From the NCBI GenBank assembly GCA_018268755.1, contig JAFDVW010000002.1:1-64000 (forward strand): DNA of 64,000 nt, given 5' to 3'. The notes beneath the pieces are model-generated. The model was not told the DNA's origin. It did not search any database and was given only the letters and a program-made list of their open reading frames with translations. The stretch is from Acidobacteriota bacterium. GTDB lineage: Bacteria; Acidobacteriota; Terriglobia; Terriglobales; Acidobacteriaceae. Below are positions 3,203 to 36,335 of this stretch, one piece after another (position 1 is the stretch's first letter; every line of letters begins with the position of its first letter). The translations under genes and the position numbers were made by a program.

Positions 3203-4654
3203 TTAGTGCAAATACTGCGCGGCCTGTTCCGGCGTCACCATGACGAAGATCAATCCGGTCAGATGATCGAAGTTGAAGATGGCGGCCTTGCCTTTTTCCG
3301 TGCCTTCGCCAATCCACACCCAGGTGCCCTGCCCGTCTTCCCGGCGAAAGATGGGAGGCAGTCCGGCAGGAGCCACGGCATTCGGTGCCGGCCGCCTCAC
3401 GCGAAACTTCATTACGTCGCCGGCAGCTCCTACCTGATAACCATGCACATTATTGAAGCCGGTAGGAACAATCGTGGCCGAGGTCTCATCGCCCTCGCGC
3501 GTGACCATGGCTCCAGCGAAGTAGGGCGCGTTGTGCGGCGTGAGCTTGGTGCCGGGATGGTGCGAAGTATAGAGGTCGGTTGCATCTTTAAGGTCGTTCG
3601 GCACCTGCTCGAGGCTCTTGGCGGGGGCCAGTGAAAGCTGGTTCCCATTCAGAATGTAGATGGCCTGACTGGCATCGAAAGCGGCGATCCACGATCCTTG
3701 CGCATTGTGTCCCAGATAGCGGCCGTTGACTTTGTCGGCGAAGTAAATCAGCACCGCCGGCTGCCATTTCTCATCCCAGGGACTGAACCAATAGGTAATG
3801 CACTGAGCTCCCAGAGCGTTGGGCGCCAGCACGATGTTGCCGGCGGATTTCGGGAAATTCGGATCATCTCCGTAAAGGCTGCGAAAAAACACCGTGGGAA
3901 AGGGCGTATGCTGAAAATACTCGGGAGCTGGATTCTTCAAGCCGAGCGGCAAACTGTATATTGAGAAATTGGAAGGGGCTTGAGCGAGAAGGTCCCCCTT
4001 GAGCACCATTCGTCCCTGAAACCAGGTCCCATCTTCGTTATAGCCCTGGTAAAGAAGGAACGCTCCACCTCCACCCACCGAGTGGTCGGCTTCCACAATA
4101 GGCAGGGACTTCGGGCCAGCAGGGTAATGGTAGAACAGCTTCTTGATGTTGAAAGTGTTCGCGCGCAACGCGATTTCGCCCCGCGCGTTGGGAAAATTGG
4201 GGTCCTCCCCGTAGGGGCCGTTGGCCGCGGCGCCGGCTTTGCCTCCAGCCGGCACACCTCCATGGTCCGCCAGATACTGCGGCGAAGGGTTCTTTAAGCC
4301 GCTCGGCGCTTCCGCCGGCGACTTCACACTGGCCCGCCGGAACACGTTGCCCTTCAGGATGTAGACGGCATCCTGCTCATACATCCACGTACCCTCGGCG
4401 TTAAATCCGAGGTACACCATGCCGTGGATTTGTCCGCCGAAAGGTACTGCCAAAGCAGTAGGAATATCACCCGCCTGGTAGGCATAGGCGACGGCCGTGG
4501 CGCCCAATGGGTTCGGCGCGAGCACGACCAGCCCTTTGCCCTGGGGCAGGTTCGGATCGCTTGCGACAGACTGCGCGATCGCGCTCACTGAGGACACGAA
4601 CAGAATTGTCCCGACAAGAACCACCAAAACGTGGCCTTCTCTTGCACGTCCCAT
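3203..4654 (-). CDS. Secreted protein with three tandem ~100-residue repeats
   Basis: I do not recognise a family. The 483-residue protein has an N-terminal hydrophobic signal (about residues 8-27, ending near AIAQS). Three homologous units follow at about 33-131, 151-249 and 264-366. Each starts '(D/E)DPN(L/F)P', continues with an 'IVLAPNALGA'-like strand and a 'GYNEDGTW'/'GFNAEGTW'/'GHNAQGSW' turn, then '(L/I)LKG(N/D)' and '(G)LKNP(S/A)P(Q/E)Y'. A non-repeat C-terminal domain (about 370-483) contains 'GQGTWVWIGEG'. This looks like a periplasmic or outer-surface beta-rich repeat protein. It is monocistronic, with REP units downstream. Confidence 0.75.
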   Translation of the reverse strand: MGRAREGHVLVVLVGTILFVSSVSAIAQSVASDPNLPQGKGLVVLAPNPLGATAVAYAYQAGDIPTALAVPFGGQIHGMVYLGFNAEGTWMYEQDAVYILKGNVFRRASVKSPAEAPSGLKNPSPQYLADHGGVPAGGKAGAAANGPYGEDPNFPNARGEIALRANTFNIKKLFYHYPAGPKSLPIVEADHSVGGGGAFLLYQGYNEDGTWFQGRMVLKGDLLAQAPSNFSIYSLPLGLKNPAPEYFQHTPFPTVFFRSLYGDDPNFPKSAGNIVLAPNALGAQCITYWFSPWDEKWQPAVLIYFADKVNGRYLGHNAQGSWIAAFDASQAIYILNGNQLSLAPAKSLEQVPNDLKDATDLYTSHHPGTKLTPHNAPYFAGAMVTREGDETSATIVPTGFNNVHGYQVGAAGDVMKFRVRRPAPNAVAPAGLPPIFRREDGQGTWVWIGEGTEKGKAAIFNFDHLTGLIFVMVTPEQAAQYLH

Positions 4655-9448: not shown

Positions 9449-9632
9449 GCCCTTTCACTCGCTGCGATTTTTAATGCGCCACATGGGGAGCAGTGTGGAA
9501 AGATTCTCGTTTCCGCGCCGGCTCCTTGACAAGGGCCTTCCGCCGGAGCAATATGCAGCACATACCCCTGCGGCCGAACCCTGTAGTTCCCTCCCAAAAA
9601 ATCTGAGCGCATTTTTCGGTTCGAGGTAAAGC

Positions 9633-11330
9633 ATGTCTCCAGTTGCCGTTCCTTCTCGCAAAATGCTGGTCCTGGCCCAGGACCCGACCGTAAAAGTTGG
9701 CGGCAAAGTGGTGACCGCCGAAGTGGATGTTCCCGACGAAATTCTCTCTCCGGGGCCGCGCGGCTACCGTGTCTACGTCGTGGACTTCGATTCCTCCAGC
9801 GGCCTGCTCTATCAGCCGGCCAAAGTCCCGGTGGATGAAACCCGCTCCCTCGCGCGCCTGCTCGACGATCCCGCCTTCCATGCGCAGAACGTTTATGCCA
9901 TCGTCATGCGGACATTGTCCCGCTTCGAGTTCGCTCTGGGCCGCCGCATCAGCTGGAGCTTCGATGGACATCAGATCCATGTGGCCCCGCACGCTTTCCG
10001 CGATGCCAACGCCTTTTACTCCAAACGCGACCGCGGACTGTTTTTCGGCTACTTCGAAGACGCCAAGGACCGCCGCGTCTTTACCTGCCTCTCCCATGAT
10101 GTCGTCGCCCATGAAACGACCCACGCCCTGGTCGACGGCCTGCGGGAGCGCTACACCTTTCCCTCTTCTCCCGATCAGGCGGCCTTCCATGAAGGCTTCG
10201 CCGATGTGGTGGCCTTGCTCTCCATCTTTTCGCTTCCCGGGGTCGTGGAAAAACTCATGACGCGAAAGATGAAGCGCAGCAACGACAAATTTGTGCGCCG
10301 CTCCGAACTCACCCGTGATGCCTTGCAGGCCACCGCCCTCTTCGGCCTGGGCGAAGAGGTTGACCCCCGCCATGATGCGCTGCGGCGGTCGGTCTCTATC
10401 AAGCCCAGCAAGCGGCTCATCCACACCGCGGAGTTCCTCGAACCGCATCGCCGCGGCGAACTGCTGGTCGCCGCCATGATGAACGCATTCCTCAGCCTGT
10501 GGCTCAAACGCATTGGACATTTGGCCCGGAATGAAGGCGCAACCCTGTTTCGCGCCAAAGTCGCGGACGAAGGACGCCTGGCCGCCGACCACCTGCTCAC
10601 CATGGGGATCCGCGCCCTGGATTACGCACCCGCCACCGATCTTCTCTTCGGCGATTACCTAAGCGCGCTGCTCACTGCCGACCTGGAGGTCCAGCCCGAC
10701 GACTCCACCTATCATTATCGCGAGACCCTGCGCGGGAGCTTTGCCGCCTATGGCATCATGCCTACTTCAAGCCGGGAAACCACCACCGAGCCCGGGGTGT
10801 GGGAACCGCCGCCGGCGCTGAAGCTCGACTATTCGCGCACCCATTTCGATGCCATGCGCCAGGACCGTGACGAGGTCTTTCACTTCCTCTGGCAGAACCG
10901 CGAGGCCCTGGGGGTCGACGATCGTGCCTATACCCGCGTGCAATCGGTGCGTCCGTGCTTGCGCATGTCGTCCGATGGCTTCCTGCTGCATGAAACCGTC
11001 GCGGAGTACATCCAGATCCTGAACCTCAAGGCCGCCGAACTCAGCAAGTTTGGTCTCACCCAACCAAAAGATATGCCTGGCACGCTGCCTATCACCATCT
11101 ACGGTGGCGGCGTGTTGATCTTCGACGAATACGGCCAGTTGAAATACCACATTCGCAACCGCATCCTGAACCATACCCGCCAGGACCGGCGCCTGGATTA
11201 TCTGTGGAAGTCCGGCTCCCTGACCCCGGGCGATACGGAAAGACGATTTGCCATGATGCACCGTCTGCGCAATACCGATGGCTTGCGCGCCAGTGCGGAA
11301 ACGGAGTGCGCCGATGCCGAATCCTTCTAA
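9633..11330 (+). CDS. Cytosolic gluzincin-type peptidase-like protein
   Basis: This 565-residue protein has no signal peptide or membrane segment. Its one clear motif is a gluzincin zinc site: 'HETTH' (residues 160-164), with the third ligand E187 in 'HEGFADVVALL', as in thermolysin-like enzymes (HExxH plus ExxxD). I cannot assign the N-terminal ~100 residues or the C-terminal ~200 residues, which include 'YIQILNLKAAELSKFG'. The ATG at 9633 follows an AGGTAAAGC. The last 17 bases overlap the start of the MBL hydrolase, so the two are translationally coupled. Lack of an export signal is unusual for M4-like peptidases. Substrate unknown. Confidence 0.7.
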   Translation: MSPVAVPSRKMLVLAQDPTVKVGGKVVTAEVDVPDEILSPGPRGYRVYVVDFDSSSGLLYQPAKVPVDETRSLARLLDDPAFHAQNVYAIVMRTLSRFEFALGRRISWSFDGHQIHVAPHAFRDANAFYSKRDRGLFFGYFEDAKDRRVFTCLSHDVVAHETTHALVDGLRERYTFPSSPDQAAFHEGFADVVALLSIFSLPGVVEKLMTRKMKRSNDKFVRRSELTRDALQATALFGLGEEVDPRHDALRRSVSIKPSKRLIHTAEFLEPHRRGELLVAAMMNAFLSLWLKRIGHLARNEGATLFRAKVADEGRLAADHLLTMGIRALDYAPATDLLFGDYLSALLTADLEVQPDDSTYHYRETLRGSFAAYGIMPTSSRETTTEPGVWEPPPALKLDYSRTHFDAMRQDRDEVFHFLWQNREALGVDDRAYTRVQSVRPCLRMSSDGFLLHETVAEYIQILNLKAAELSKFGLTQPKDMPGTLPITIYGGGVLIFDEYGQLKYHIRNRILNHTRQDRRLDYLWKSGSLTPGDTERRFAMMHRLRNTDGLRASAETECADAESF

Positions 11331-12579
11331 CCCGACCGGAGTCACCGTTCGCTCCTATCAGGTGGGCTTTGGAGATTGTTTTCTGCTCACCTTTCACTAT
11401 CCCGAAGAAGACCGCTATGTATTGATAGACTTCGGCACCACGGGCACGCCCGATGGCAAAAACAAGCAACGCCTTCTCGCCATCGCCAAAGACATCGCCA
11501 AATCTTGCCACAACAAACTTCATGCCGTGGTGGCGACGCACCGCCATCGCGACCACATCAGCGGCTTCGACACCGGCGGCGCCACCAGCCCCGGCAAAAT
11601 CATCCGCGATTGCCATCCTGATGTCGTGGTGCAGCCCTGGACCGAAGACCCCAAAGCCAAGACCAATGCCGTCGAAGCTACCCAGACCCAGGTCGAGAAT
11701 TTCCAGCTGGCCTTTGCTCAGATGCATGCCTTCGCCGGGCAGGCGCTGCAGGAAATTGCCCGGCTGAAGGCGTTTTCCACGCAGGACTTCGGCCCCCTGG
11801 GTTTTATCGGGGAAGATAATCTCGCCAATGCCGCCGCGGTCAGAAATCTCATGACCATGGGGAAAAAGAATTTCTATGTGAATGCCGGCAGTCCGTCGGG
11901 ACTGGAAGCAGTTTTGCCGGGAGTCAGAATTTGGGTGCTCGGGCCCCCCACCCTCAAGCAGTCCGATCTTATTCGCAAAGAGCGCAGCAGCGATCCCGAT
12001 GAATTCTGGCAGCTGCAAAACAAGTTCTGGACCATCCAGGGCAAGCCGCCCTCCGCCGCCAGTTTGTTCCCTGGCCACGAGGCGCGGCAACTTCCCCTTG
12101 AAGCCCGCTGGTTTGTGGAGAAGGCCGCCCAGGTGCGCGGCGACCAATTATTGCAACTGGTGCGCGTGCTCGACAACGCCATGAACAACACCAGCGTGAT
12201 TCTCTTATTGGAAGTAAACGGCAAACGCCTGCTCTTGCCGGGAGACGCGCAGATTGAAAACTGGTCTTATTCGCTGGGCAAGCCGCAGACCACGGCCCTG
12301 TTGAAGTCCGTTAGCCTATACAAGGTCGGCCACCATGGCAGCCGCAACGCTACGCCGAAAACCCTGTGGAACTTGTTCGCCAACCGTTCCACGCAGGCTT
12401 CCGCCACTCGCCTGAAGACCATGGTCTCCACTATGGCGGGAAAATTCGGCTCGGAGAAAAGCAAGACCGAAGTCCCGCGCAAAACGCTGATCGCCGAACT
12501 CAAGGCCAAGAGCGATTTCTTCTCCACCCAGGAACTCACCGGCAGCGCCCTGAGTCCCAGCCACGAGGAGACCTTATAG
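11314..12579 (+). CDS. MBL-fold hydrolase, ComEC/Rec2-like domain
   Basis: Predicted di-metal hydrolase of 421 residues. 'HRHRDH' (76-81) is the canonical HxHxDH motif after 'LIDFG' (37-41), with a later 'LLLPGDAQ' and 'VGHHGSRN', as in the soluble domain of ComEC. No transmembrane segments, so it is cytosolic and not a DNA-uptake channel. The ATG at 11314 lies inside the end of the upstream peptidase gene (17-nt overlap). An in-frame upstream ATG at 11278 would extend the overlap. A long insert (about 105-260) between metal motifs is not recognised. The stop is 9 bp from the convergent oxidoreductase gene. Substrate unknown; phosphodiester cleavage is a guess from ComEC. Confidence 0.8.
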   Translation: MPNPSNPTGVTVRSYQVGFGDCFLLTFHYPEEDRYVLIDFGTTGTPDGKNKQRLLAIAKDIAKSCHNKLHAVVATHRHRDHISGFDTGGATSPGKIIRDCHPDVVVQPWTEDPKAKTNAVEATQTQVENFQLAFAQMHAFAGQALQEIARLKAFSTQDFGPLGFIGEDNLANAAAVRNLMTMGKKNFYVNAGSPSGLEAVLPGVRIWVLGPPTLKQSDLIRKERSSDPDEFWQLQNKFWTIQGKPPSAASLFPGHEARQLPLEARWFVEKAAQVRGDQLLQLVRVLDNAMNNTSVILLLEVNGKRLLLPGDAQIENWSYSLGKPQTTALLKSVSLYKVGHHGSRNATPKTLWNLFANRSTQASATRLKTMVSTMAGKFGSEKSKTEVPRKTLIAELKAKSDFFSTQELTGSALSPSHEETL

Positions 12580-27993: not shown

Positions 27994-28115
27994 GGCAGAT
28001 TGTTCCTATCGGGGAATGTTAAGAGAGATATTTTACTGTGAGTCGGGCAGTGAGACCAACCCGGGGCGCTGGGGAAGGACACGATTTTAATCGTGCCAAA
28101 CTACATCCGATCACC

Positions 28116-29021
28116 TCAGGCGTGCGACTGTACCGCGGCCGCCAGGGCCGGCGGCGCGTTGTATTCCTCTTCTTCCACCGTCGTCTCTTCCCAAAGCGTG
28201 CGGTCGCGCAGCAGGCGGGACACCAGGGCCGTATGCATGGCGTGGCCGGCGCGGTCGGCCACTACTCTGCCCAGAATCTGCTTGCCCAGCAGGGCCAGGT
28301 CGCCAATCAGATCCAGCACCTTGTGCCGCACGAATTCGTCGCTGTAACGCAAGGGCGGATTGGTCAATCCCTCGCGCGACAACACCAGGCAGTTCTCCGG
28401 CGAAGCGCCGCGAATCAAACCTTGCTTGCGCATGGCGTCGGCCTCATGCAGGAAGCCAAAGGTCCGCGCCGAGGCTATGTCGCGCAGATAATTTCCGTTG
28501 TTCAGCTCCACCTGGAAGGTTTCTTTGCCGATGAGCGGGTGGGGGAAATTGATGGTGTATGCCACGGCGTAGGTATCGGAAGGATAGACGCCGATAAACT
28601 TATCGCCCTCGCGCAGTTCCAGTTCGCGACGAATACGCCAATAGGTCCGCGCCCGCCGCTGCTTGCGAATCCCGGCCCGCAGGATCGCATCCACAAAGGG
28701 CTTGGCGCTGCCATCCAGAATCGGCAGCTCCAGATTGTCCAGCTCTACGATCGCGTTGTCGATGCCCAGCCCGATAAATGCGGAAAGAATATGTTCGGTG
28801 GTGGATATCAGGACGCCTTTCTTCATCAGGCTGGTGGCGTAGCTGACGCGGGCCACGTTGCGGCCCACCGCTTCTACTTCGAATCCGTCCAGGTCCACGC
28901 GACGAAAGACAATGCCTGCGCCGGCCGGCGCGGGAAGAATTTTCAGATGGACGGGAGCGCCACTATGCAACCCCACCCCGCGCGCTTCCACGGCCGTCCG
29001 GATTGTCTGTTCCGTTCTCAA
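28116..29021 (-). CDS. lpxC: UDP-3-O-acyl-N-acetylglucosamine deacetylase
   Basis: Committed zinc-dependent step of lipid A synthesis, showing that the host has an LPS outer membrane. The 301 residues carry 'GVGLHSG' (16-22), 'TTEHILSA' (zinc His77), 'HKVLDLIGD' (two more ligands) and 'AGHAMH' (catalytic His). The only start candidate after an in-frame stop is TTG at 29021. The length is normal. No other lpx gene is adjacent. Confidence 0.96.
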   Translation of the reverse strand: MRTEQTIRTAVEARGVGLHSGAPVHLKILPAPAGAGIVFRRVDLDGFEVEAVGRNVARVSYATSLMKKGVLISTTEHILSAFIGLGIDNAIVELDNLELPILDGSAKPFVDAILRAGIRKQRRARTYWRIRRELELREGDKFIGVYPSDTYAVAYTINFPHPLIGKETFQVELNNGNYLRDIASARTFGFLHEADAMRKQGLIRGASPENCLVLSREGLTNPPLRYSDEFVRHKVLDLIGDLALLGKQILGRVVADRAGHAMHTALVSRLLRDRTLWEETTVEEEEYNAPPALAAAVQSHA

Positions 29022-29298
29022 TCGGTTTTGCTGGCCACCAGTAAGTGGCTCAACTGGAAGAGATTACGCCTTTGCCAGTATTCCTGTCTGTGGTAAAAAA
29101 GCCACACTCAGGAAGTTTTGCCCCTTCTTCCCACCGCCTTCCTCATCCAAATATTAGAATTTTCAAAGAGATACCTGCCCCCTCAGGGCTGTGGTTACAC
29201 CCTGGGCCCTGGCCCTCGGTTTGGGCATTTTTCCAGCCCGGACCGCCCCAGCCACAAAATTCTTTGCGGCACCGAATGCCCAATTTCGTCTAAACCCT

Positions 29299-33737: not shown

Positions 33738-33971
33738 GCACAGTCCGCCATCCAAAAGTGCAAATTCTTTCACTCCCCTCGCCCGCAAGCCCTTTTCACA
33801 ACTTCCTTCACAAATTGTCTCGAATGTTTTGTCGGATTTTGGTTATGATCTTTCACCCGCGAAACCCTGGCGGGAGGCCCCGTTTCATCTGCTGACTTCT
33901 TTCACCATCTTGAGGCAATGAACCCGCGCTGTTTTCCCGGAACGGCGCACTGCACACTCTGTGGAGGTTTC

Positions 33972-36335
33972 ATGTCTGACCGTTTCTCGAAATTTGCAGT
34001 TTTGCGTTTTCTGTCCGCTTCCCTCCTTCTGCTCTCGGCACTGCTCGCGCACGCCGCCGGAAGCCGGCGGGTCATTATCTACTCCTCCGGCTCCCGCCAG
34101 GAATTGAAACAGCGGGTCCAGGCCTTGGGCGGCAAGGTCCAACGTGAATTTGACAACGTCACCGCCGTCTCCGCCACGGTCCCGGAAGGCGCGCTTTCCG
34201 CGCTGCATGCCGTGGCCGGCTATAAAGTCAGAAAGAGCGCCGCGGTGCTTGCCCCAGTCACGCGTGGGCCGCGGGGCTTGGCGGGCCAGGTGCGGGTGGC
34301 GTCCGCCGGTCATTTGAAGTTTGATCAGGCCACCATCATCAAGAACGCGCAAACCAAACCTTCCGACTATCTGTTCAACAATGCGCTGATCAATGCCGCC
34401 GGGCTGCAGGCTGCGGGTTATCTGGGACAGGACGCCATCGTCGCCATCATTGACAGCGGCACCGCCAACAATCCGGATGTCGTGTTCTCCCTCGACGGCG
34501 CGGTCATTGGTGGGGAAAGCTTTGTTCCCAGCTCCGAGGACCCGGTGACTTCCGCCACCAGCACTAAAAACGGTGACCACGGCACCTGGGTGGGCACTAT
34601 GATCGCGGGCAACACCGCGTTCCTGCTTCCCAACACTTCCTGCCTGGCTCGTTCCGTTCAGTTCAATGCCCCGGACTCGATTTTTGACGGCACGCCCTAT
34701 GGCTATGCCGGCTACCAGGTGCTTCCCTTGGTCGGAGTAGCTCCGGCCGCCAAGCTTTACGCGCTCAAGGTATTCCCCTCGACCGGAGACAGCGCGGCGG
34801 ATGATCGCATTATTGCCGCCATGGATCGCGCCATTACCCTCAAGAAGAACTTCCTTGCCGGCAAGCCCTCCGTTCCTGTCTCCGGTTCCGGCACCGAAGA
34901 TGATCCTTATGTCTATGACTCGCTGAATATCCAGGTCGTCAACATGAGCCTGGGTGGCCCGACGCAGGCCGCCGGACGCGACGTGGAAGACTTGCTGGCC
35001 CAGCAAATGCTGAAGGTCGGGATTACGCTGGCCACCTCGGCGGGCAACGCCGGACCGGCTTTGCTGACCACGGGCAGCCCTTCCACCGGTTTGGGCTCCA
35101 TCTCCTCGGCCGCCGCCGATGTACCCGCGCATGAACGCATTTATTGGGACGTGGCCGGCGCCTCCTCTTGTGCTGTTGGCTTAGGCGCCCTGGCTCGTCC
35201 CACCGACACCATTCAGACCGCATACTTCAGTTCGCGTGGTCCCACGGCGGACGGCCGCGTCGGCGTCGATGTCACCTCCGCCGGATACTTCAACTTCGTT
35301 CAAAGTGCGGACGGCAGCCTGTCTCTGGTCGCCGGCACTTCCTTCACCGCACCCACGGTCGCCGGCGCCGCCGCCTTATTGCGTTCCGCCCTGCCCAAAG
35401 CCTCGGCCATCGAAACCCGCAATGCTCTGGTTTTGGGCGCCAATCCCCGTGTCCTGGACGACAAATCCGGCGCCGTGGAACAGGGTGCCGGCTATCTCGA
35501 CGTGGCCCGCTCTCTCGACTTGTTGCAACGCCGCAAAGTCTCCAATCGCTTGCCCGCGTTCCCCTTTTATTTTGGGGAAGTCGGCTTGAACGCCCTGAAG
35601 TTCGGCATTGTCCCCAGTTTCCTGTTTCCGGGAGTCCCTCTGAAGTTCAACGTGAAAAATGTTTTGCCGGGTGAGACCCGCGAGTTCCTGGTGCGAGTGG
35701 GCGCCGGCCGTTCGCAGGTGCAGGTGAGCGTAAACAGTGTTACCCCCAAACTGTCTGCGGACCAGCAAAACCAGCTCTTCGGTGATGACATCTTCTTCGC
35801 CGTGCACCAGGCCAAGACCTCTTCCTTCGGAGAAGGCGATTATCCCATCCAGGATTTCGTGGGCTCTCCGGCGACCTATACCATCGATGATCCCGAGCCC
35901 GGCTATATGCGCGTGGTCATCATGGGAGACTGGACCAACGCCGGTCCGGTCGCGGCCAGCGTTACGCTCACTGCCAGCAATGTAGGGACACCGGTGTTCT
36001 CGCGTTCCAGGAAAATTGCCGAGGGCGATCAACACAGTTACACGCTGAACGTCCCTTCCGGATGGACGTCCTTGCACGCTGAACTCACCTGGGACAATGA
36101 CTGGAGCCATTACCCCACCAACGATCTCGACCTGATCCTGATCGACCCCAATGGCAATGTGAATATCGACGGCGCCACCTTGAACGGACGCGAGATCGCC
36201 GACATCCCCAGTCCCACGCCCGGACAATGGACGGTTGTGGTGGATGGTTTCGATATCTTCGGGAAGTTACTGGACGATGGCAGCGAACGCGGTCCGCAAA
36301 CCGACGTCTATCGCCTCACTGTCTACCCCCAGTAA
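33972..36335 (+). CDS. Secreted S8 subtilisin-like serine peptidase
   Basis: A 787-residue exported protease. Signal peptide about 1-29, then an inhibitor-I9-like propeptide (about 32-92), then the subtilase domain with the triad D161 ('AIIDSG'), H203 ('DHGTWV') and S457 ('GTSFTAPTVAGAAALL'). An oxyanion Asn lies in 'TSAGNAGPA'. Two beta domains follow (about 540-787); the last ends 'SPTPGQWTVVVDG', like a P/homoB-type domain. ATG 33972 has GGAGG at proper distance; ATG 33918 is less likely. It stands alone, closed by a strong terminator. Confidence 0.93.
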   Translation: MSDRFSKFAVLRFLSASLLLLSALLAHAAGSRRVIIYSSGSRQELKQRVQALGGKVQREFDNVTAVSATVPEGALSALHAVAGYKVRKSAAVLAPVTRGPRGLAGQVRVASAGHLKFDQATIIKNAQTKPSDYLFNNALINAAGLQAAGYLGQDAIVAIIDSGTANNPDVVFSLDGAVIGGESFVPSSEDPVTSATSTKNGDHGTWVGTMIAGNTAFLLPNTSCLARSVQFNAPDSIFDGTPYGYAGYQVLPLVGVAPAAKLYALKVFPSTGDSAADDRIIAAMDRAITLKKNFLAGKPSVPVSGSGTEDDPYVYDSLNIQVVNMSLGGPTQAAGRDVEDLLAQQMLKVGITLATSAGNAGPALLTTGSPSTGLGSISSAAADVPAHERIYWDVAGASSCAVGLGALARPTDTIQTAYFSSRGPTADGRVGVDVTSAGYFNFVQSADGSLSLVAGTSFTAPTVAGAAALLRSALPKASAIETRNALVLGANPRVLDDKSGAVEQGAGYLDVARSLDLLQRRKVSNRLPAFPFYFGEVGLNALKFGIVPSFLFPGVPLKFNVKNVLPGETREFLVRVGAGRSQVQVSVNSVTPKLSADQQNQLFGDDIFFAVHQAKTSSFGEGDYPIQDFVGSPATYTIDDPEPGYMRVVIMGDWTNAGPVAASVTLTASNVGTPVFSRSRKIAEGDQHSYTLNVPSGWTSLHAELTWDNDWSHYPTNDLDLILIDPNGNVNIDGATLNGREIADIPSPTPGQWTVVVDGFDIFGKLLDDGSERGPQTDVYRLTVYPQ

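Follow-up and report, generated by a model that had tools for sequence, protein, structure and literature searches.

The activation of nucleases by proteases has only recently been recognised as a theme of bacterial immunity, and the partners shown to date are trypsin-like enzymes and caspases. According to the main text of Tuck et al. (Science 2025; PMC12799240), the pro-nuclease HamM carries two insertions, which a trypsin-fused HamA cuts after conserved isoleucines, the same held in AVAST, and the caspase complex CanAB activates CanC. These gated metallo-beta-lactamase (MBL) proteins are inactive DNases until the trypsin or caspase partner acts, and homologs are said there to be found together with proteases of "other diverse families". 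The same main text contains no word starting with metalloprotease, subtilisin, peptidase, lipase or patatin. The literature search, which had supplements outside its reach, found no thermolysin-like or gluzincin partner, and the supplement of PMC12799240 may list one; in the preprint PMC12458937, the occurrences of "MBL" are accession numbers. Here we describe two overlapping genes in a 64,000-nucleotide stretch of DNA from an Acidobacteriota bacterium (assembly GCA_018268755.1, contig JAFDVW010000002.1, positions 1 to 64,000), hereafter the window. They encode a thermolysin-like metallopeptidase and a ComEC-like MBL hydrolase, and they probably form a two-gene protease-activated pro-nuclease module, in which the peptidase activates a gated MBL DNase and the infected cell dies or arrests.

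The cytosolic metallopeptidase gene (9633..11330, forward strand) is an open reading frame (ORF) of 565 amino acids (aa), with GAGG at 9623-9626 just upstream of its ATG at 9633. The MBL gene (11314..12579, forward strand) encodes a predicted gated pro-nuclease of 421 aa. As read from the sequence, its start is most likely the ATG at 11314, which is preceded by GGAG (11303..11306, forward strand), a probable ribosome-binding site located inside the peptidase gene. With this start and the peptidase TAA at 11328-11330, the genes overlap by 17 bp, exactly as the initial annotation had it; the longest in-frame start, an ATG at 11278, would give an overlap of 53 bp. The GC content of the two genes (0.61 and 0.58) is like that of the window (0.60) and thus gives no sign of recent import. 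The peptidase gene is present as a single copy in its own genome.

To analyze the conservation of the pair, a profile search was run on 84,980 species genomes. It confirmed at least 503 peptidase relatives, of which the best 80 were kept as named loci; being the closest relatives, these do not represent a random draw, and they include some near-duplicates. An MBL gene lies directly downstream of the peptidase in 75 of the 80, in 69 by ORF position and in six (L074, L099, L109, L129, L138 and L143) with the MBL frame opening upstream; at L069 the contig edge is reached and the MBL neighbour is undecidable. The same arrangement was found in all six plasmid loci fetched and in 13 of 23 loci fetched from whole genomes; of the other ten, eight are without an MBL gene and two are undecidable at contig ends. 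Viewed from the other side, the MBL subfamily (E <= 1e-60) occurs in 12 of 396 genomes of the phylum and adjoins the peptidase in 11; in the twelfth (G472) it is on another contig, and both genes are near contig ends. The partners overlap or abut, with no small precursor gene between them. Their pairwise distances co-vary strongly, with a Mantel r of 0.86 for 54 pairs and 0.69 for the 39 nearest pairs, and none of 5000 permutations was as high in either case. The pairing of the peptidase with the MBL protein is therefore no accident, and the condition on which the initial annotation had staked its reading, conservation of the two genes as neighbours across phyla, holds.

The peptidase carries a zinc-binding and catalytic HETTH motif at residues 160-164 (10110..10124, forward strand), HEGFAD at residues 186-191 (10188..10205, forward strand) and H272 (10446..10448, forward strand). 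Residues H160, E161, H164, H186, E187, D191 and H272 are invariant in 54 aligned relatives, the numbering given earlier for H160, H164, E187 and D191 being correct, and the HExxH...ExxxD pattern is kept in all 80 named loci. From thermolysin biochemistry we take E187 to be the third zinc ligand and presume the role of D191 likewise; H272 is a candidate equivalent of thermolysin His231. The Pfam M4 profile (PF01447) matches below its gathering cut-off (E 0.0015, 19.4 versus 22.4 bits), and no match was obtained in NCBIfam, in PADLOC or in a sequence search of solved structures. AF2 modeling from the 54 rows gave a mean predicted local distance difference test score (pLDDT) of 90.1. Foldseek matched this model to vibriolysin, thermolysin and aureolysin (E 1.5e-5 to 5e-4), and VIA to the M36 protease 7z6t (Z 18.4, root-mean-square deviation 3.8, 309 residues), to M4 vibriolysin 3nqx and elastase 9fqd (Z 17.7 for both) and to thermolysin 1kei (Z 16.8). 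On the strength of these matches, residues ~7-390 are modelled as a thermolysin-like catalytic unit of the M4/M36 fold, a gluzincin.

The catalytic fold and the HExxH...ExxxD...H set are shared with the M4 and M36 peptidases thermolysin, elastase, vibriolysin and fungalysin. In contrast to these enzymes, the window peptidase has no export signal, propeptide or hydrophobic N-terminus evident by eye from the sequence, most of its relatives have an MBL gene directly downstream, and it carries an additional C-terminal alpha/beta domain at residues ~395-545 (10815..11267, forward strand; strands 433-445, 451-466, 486-497 and 503-509 in the model). Beneath the peptidases, Foldseek lists mainly NTF2-like folds, at a probability <0.3, which is a weak lead, and our guess is that the domain could serve sensing or oligomerisation.

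The MBL protein possesses three metal motifs: HRHRDH at residues 76-81 (11539..11556, forward strand), as reported previously and counted from the ATG at 11314; G310-D311-A312 (12241..12249, forward strand); and H340-H341-G-S (12331..12342, forward strand). H76, H78, D80, H81, D311, H340, H341, G342 and S343 are all invariant in 56 aligned relatives. No export signal is evident by eye, and the protein is a stand-alone soluble one. Among NCBIfam profiles it matches Avs1a (E 6.5e-15), 6A-MBL (2.4e-8) and ComEC_Rec2 (2.2e-6); in PADLOC it matches LmuA (E 1.5e-19), and LmuA, RTasMBL (PADLOC) and Avs1a are matched by all 56 relatives. These profile matches place the protein nearest to the anti-phage MBLs, namely the Avs1, Lamassu and DRT pro-nucleases. 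The PADLOC candidate PDC-M48B also has an MBL component, and 54 of the 56 members are hit by one model of this candidate; the window peptidase differs in matching no PADLOC model. We take PDC-M48 to denote multi-gene candidate 48 and not peptidase family M48, and an interpretation of PDC-M48B as a peptidase-family-M48 pair was dropped, the peptidase being without any PADLOC match.

The MBL model has a mean pLDDT of 83.8, with most of the core above 90, and VIA aligned it best to the MBL domain of ComEC (9ic4; Z 23.2, 3.2 A, 248 residues), followed by phosphorylcholine esterase (Z 19.5) and RNase J (Z 16.6), with CPSF also listed among the Foldseek and VIA matches. The window-type protein has the MBL fold in common with the ComEC DNase domain but contains ~145 extra residues between HxHxDH and GD. 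Two stretches of the model fall to low pLDDT, ~112-170 and ~213-290, and correspond to two predicted gating loops. The low-confidence part of insertion 1 spans residues ~112-170 (11647..11823, forward strand; pLDDT block means 77, 53, 62, 72, 65 and 62), and the interval 112-201 that holds it measures 72-133 residues in the 56 relatives. Insertion 2 spans residues ~213-285 (11950..12168, forward strand; pLDDT block means 84, 52, 56, 52, 66, 78, 72 and 68), within an interval, 213-290, of 70-112 residues. In 73 of the 75 pair MBLs the HxHxDH-to-GD spacing has a median of 237 and a range of 156-286; the two others, L066 and L070, are without the spacing motif. In the comparison set from the phylum it is 84-92 in ORFs of ComEC length (>600 aa) and 90-129 in other short MBL ORFs, and in 11 further Avs1a-like MBLs of the phylum it is 166-253. 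By this comparison, both insertions are placed in the same inter-motif interval as the published gating loops. Insertion 2 also holds a D227-x-x-E230-F/Y231-W232 motif (11992..12009, forward strand), with E kept in 47/56, F/Y in 50/56 and W in 52/56 relatives. Being conserved although it lies in a low-pLDDT stretch (~52-56), it is a candidate protease recognition site at which the MBL protein may be cleaved.

The window locus shares with the gated MBLs that have trypsin-like partners (HamM/Hachiman, Avs1a/AVAST, Lamassu and DRT), as the main text of PMC12799240 presents them, a ComEC-like core with intact metal motifs, two low-confidence loops, a dedicated, co-encoded and co-varying protease and a spread between lineages. 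It differs in that their protease is a serine protease fused to a sensor, whereas here it is a thermolysin-like metallopeptidase, encoded before the nuclease and without an NTPase, helicase or STAND gene; no trypsin-like domain fused to a sensor, the mark of AVAST type 1, Hachiman and Lamassu, lies beside the MBL gene in the window. With canu (CanABC), as described in the same source, it has in common a protease upstream and an MBL pro-nuclease downstream. The canu protease, however, is a caspase, and no caspase-family protease was found upstream of the window MBL gene, the peptidase there having HExxH and an M4/M36 fold; nor is there a CanB-like third gene between or beside the pair. Relative to what that text covers, the 2025 precedent already predicts most of the mechanism, and the zinc-protease class of activator, the breadth of the family and an optional phospholipase look new.

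The pair is conserved and mobile, being spread over at least 12 bacterial phyla, one archaeal metagenome-assembled genome (MAG) and conjugative plasmids. It was found in Acidobacteriota, Actinomycetota, Pseudomonadota, Planctomycetota, Verrucomicrobiota, Myxococcota, Nitrospirota, Nitrospinota, Chloroflexota, Armatimonadota, Rokuibacteriota and Walliibacteriota, on a Hymenobacter plasmid in Bacteroidota, and in a Thermoplasmata MAG, where binning may err. In a 97-row tree the phyla are mixed, several separate losses of the MBL gene are apparent, and the shortest path from the window row leads to an Acidimicrobiia MAG. Peptidase relatives are patchy, occurring in 29 of 396 genomes of the phylum and in 5 of 100 relatives. 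They are present in 151 of 72,556 plasmid records, 23 of which cover >=80% of the query. Phage records gave partial matches alone, in two records, and 23 viral contigs carry weak matches; a distant blastn search of an E. coli genome collection gave no match.

Several variants of the operon were identified. In relatives of ~1190 aa, an N-terminal S8 subtilase domain is fused to the metallopeptidase (for example L038:4246-7827, L054:7395-11006 and L142:6204-9812). These fusions occur with an MBL gene (L038, L039, L042, L055, L142 and L144) or without one (L044, L054, L057, L058 and L060); the S8 domain was tested with Pfam in L038, L042, L054 and L060, and the other fusions were assigned by length and annotation, L142 by length only. 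Moreover, subtilase-like ORFs, recognised by motif, adjoin Avs1a-like MBLs of the phylum in L168 and L172, and L174 looks alike by eye. In L169 an Avs1a-like MBL lies beside a long minus-strand ORF that by eye resembles a CHAT protease fused to an NTPase. Judging by the S8 fusions and the subtilase-like and CHAT-like neighbours, MBLs of this family appear to have partners of several protease folds. Two MBL-less relatives of the peptidase follow an ORF of ~940-1000 aa (L061:9292-12279 and L062:3100-5910) that is peptidoglycan amidase-like by eye, and L044:6821-7375 resembles an M15-type carboxypeptidase by eye.

By phmmer count, 25 of the 80 named loci encode a predicted phospholipase as a third gene, 12 of them a patatin-like one and 13 a Tle1/DUF2235-like one; in L071 and L078 it is present and does not adjoin the pair. 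The same count gave 7 of the 29 other loci and no case in 20 control regions of 12 kb. Scripted placement put it in the same direction and no more than 150 bp away in 25 of 109 loci, a few of which are duplicates; the script left L133 unplaced though a Tle1-like ORF is directly upstream of the peptidase core, and its gap of -5104 for L050 is erroneous, the ORF frame there opening inside the MBL gene. Pfam identified Patatin in 7/140 neighbour ORFs and Tle1-like in 1/140. The gene may be upstream or downstream of the pair, the two families replacing each other (examples: L080:11052-12275, L081:79-1137, L111:11043-12134 and L132:6887-7960), and the window locus has none.

Following the HamM, AVAST and CanC precedent as given in the main text of PMC12799240, we hypothesize that the same gating logic operates here with a thermolysin-like activator. 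The MBL protein would be a ComEC-type DNase made inactive by two inserted loops that cover its active site, and the cytosolic peptidase encoded upstream would be its dedicated activator. A trigger, presumably the phage, may be felt through the C-terminal domain of the peptidase or by oligomerisation; once triggered, the peptidase would cut both loops, and the freed DNase would degrade DNA and thereby kill or arrest the infected cell. By analogy, the module probably serves phage defence. The idea of a conflict module composed of a protease and a nuclease-like protein, raised by the initial annotation, thus gains from the conserved pair, from the kinship of the MBL protein to anti-phage MBLs and from the published protease-activated MBLs, its defence role here being predicted from these. 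Nor did either protein match a housekeeping family above its cut-off, the other finding that the initial annotation had named as speaking against its reading.

The same parts could instead act in parallel, the peptidase having different targets in the cell or phage and the MBL protein being an independent second effector. Catalytically intact peptidases do exist without an MBL gene, as S8-gluzincin fusions and beside other genes, and the third predicted hydrolase of some loci suggests several effectors. We nevertheless consider parallel action unlikely, given that 396 genomes yielded no clear instance of the MBL subfamily away from the peptidase, that the distances co-vary strongly and that the MBL protein carries gating-type insertions.

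It is less likely still that the genes form a toxin-antitoxin-like or housekeeping maturation pair without an immunity role, in which the MBL protein is a metabolic phosphodiesterase or RNase and the peptidase its maturation enzyme. The patchy distribution, the transfer across phyla and the plasmid copies argue against it, and among function-specific profiles the strongest matches are to anti-phage MBLs; the ordinary chromosomal setting without PADLOC enrichment, described below, and the structural matches to phosphorylcholine esterase, RNase J and CPSF would fit it. M4 and M36 peptidases are mostly secreted, which, together with the two MBL-less relatives that follow an amidase-like ORF, could speak for a precursor-processing pair, with the MBL protein carrying or modifying a secreted product on which the peptidase acts. 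The absence of an export signal or hydrophobic N-terminus by eye and the overlapping or abutting genes with no precursor gene between them make this highly improbable.

Several observations weigh against a gated pro-nuclease module. No MBL gene was found within reach, tblastn included, in L078, L092, L101 and L136, and MBL-less loci show that the peptidase can act without it and has other uses. The published gated systems, as far as the main text of PMC12799240 describes them, have a sensor gene or fusion; at the window locus neither a sensor nor an NTPase is visible, as had been remarked before. The window MBL scores 54.8 bits against Avs1a (NF041809), whose curated cut-off is 420, and is therefore not assigned as Avs1a. 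Its surroundings are ordinary chromosomal genes, encoding an alpha-amylase, a GT2-like protein, an MscS-like protein, a GFO/IDH/MocA oxidoreductase, an S41 peptidase and a penicillin-binding protein. Finally, a defence-island setting was not borne out: near the pair PADLOC matched 42 families in 140 neighbour ORFs (of 327, from 57 loci), compared with 123 in 138 control ORFs from 20 regions. This comparison is rough, with controls from the phylum of the window and neighbours from many phyla, and it left out 13 near-duplicate loci and loci without a called MBL.

If the gated pro-nuclease module is real, a zinc-protease branch reaching from Acidobacteriota to Actinomycetota, complete with subtilase fusions and optional phospholipases, would make the gated nuclease a general socket for unrelated protease folds, and would offer a compact two-gene system for asking directly what the protease senses. 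A bolder version, which we regard as doubtful, is that the cytosolic metalloprotease is itself both the infection sensor and the activator of the gated DNase, and that its widespread version also releases a patatin-like or Tle1-like phospholipase; one protease would then fire DNA-degrading and membrane-degrading effectors.

Directly adjacent to the pair, the window encodes an MscS-like protein, an oxidoreductase and a 3-keto-disaccharide hydrolase. In a search for an empty site, relatives that possess both flanking genes had them on different contigs (G005, G009 and G024) or far apart, and no insertion was shown. Single plasmid copies are near genes annotated as a CBASS cyclase, SIR2 proteins and a caspase-family protein (L036:3091-4056, L038:9492-10886 and L035:3773-4633). 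Elsewhere in the window, two ORFs of 352 aa (28038-29096, forward strand) and 483 aa (3203-4654, reverse strand) have no Pfam match at E 1e-4, and each could be a shadow frame. An 805-aa S8 subtilase (Pfam E 5.2e-28) is encoded at 33918-36335 on the forward strand, unrelated in position to the pair.

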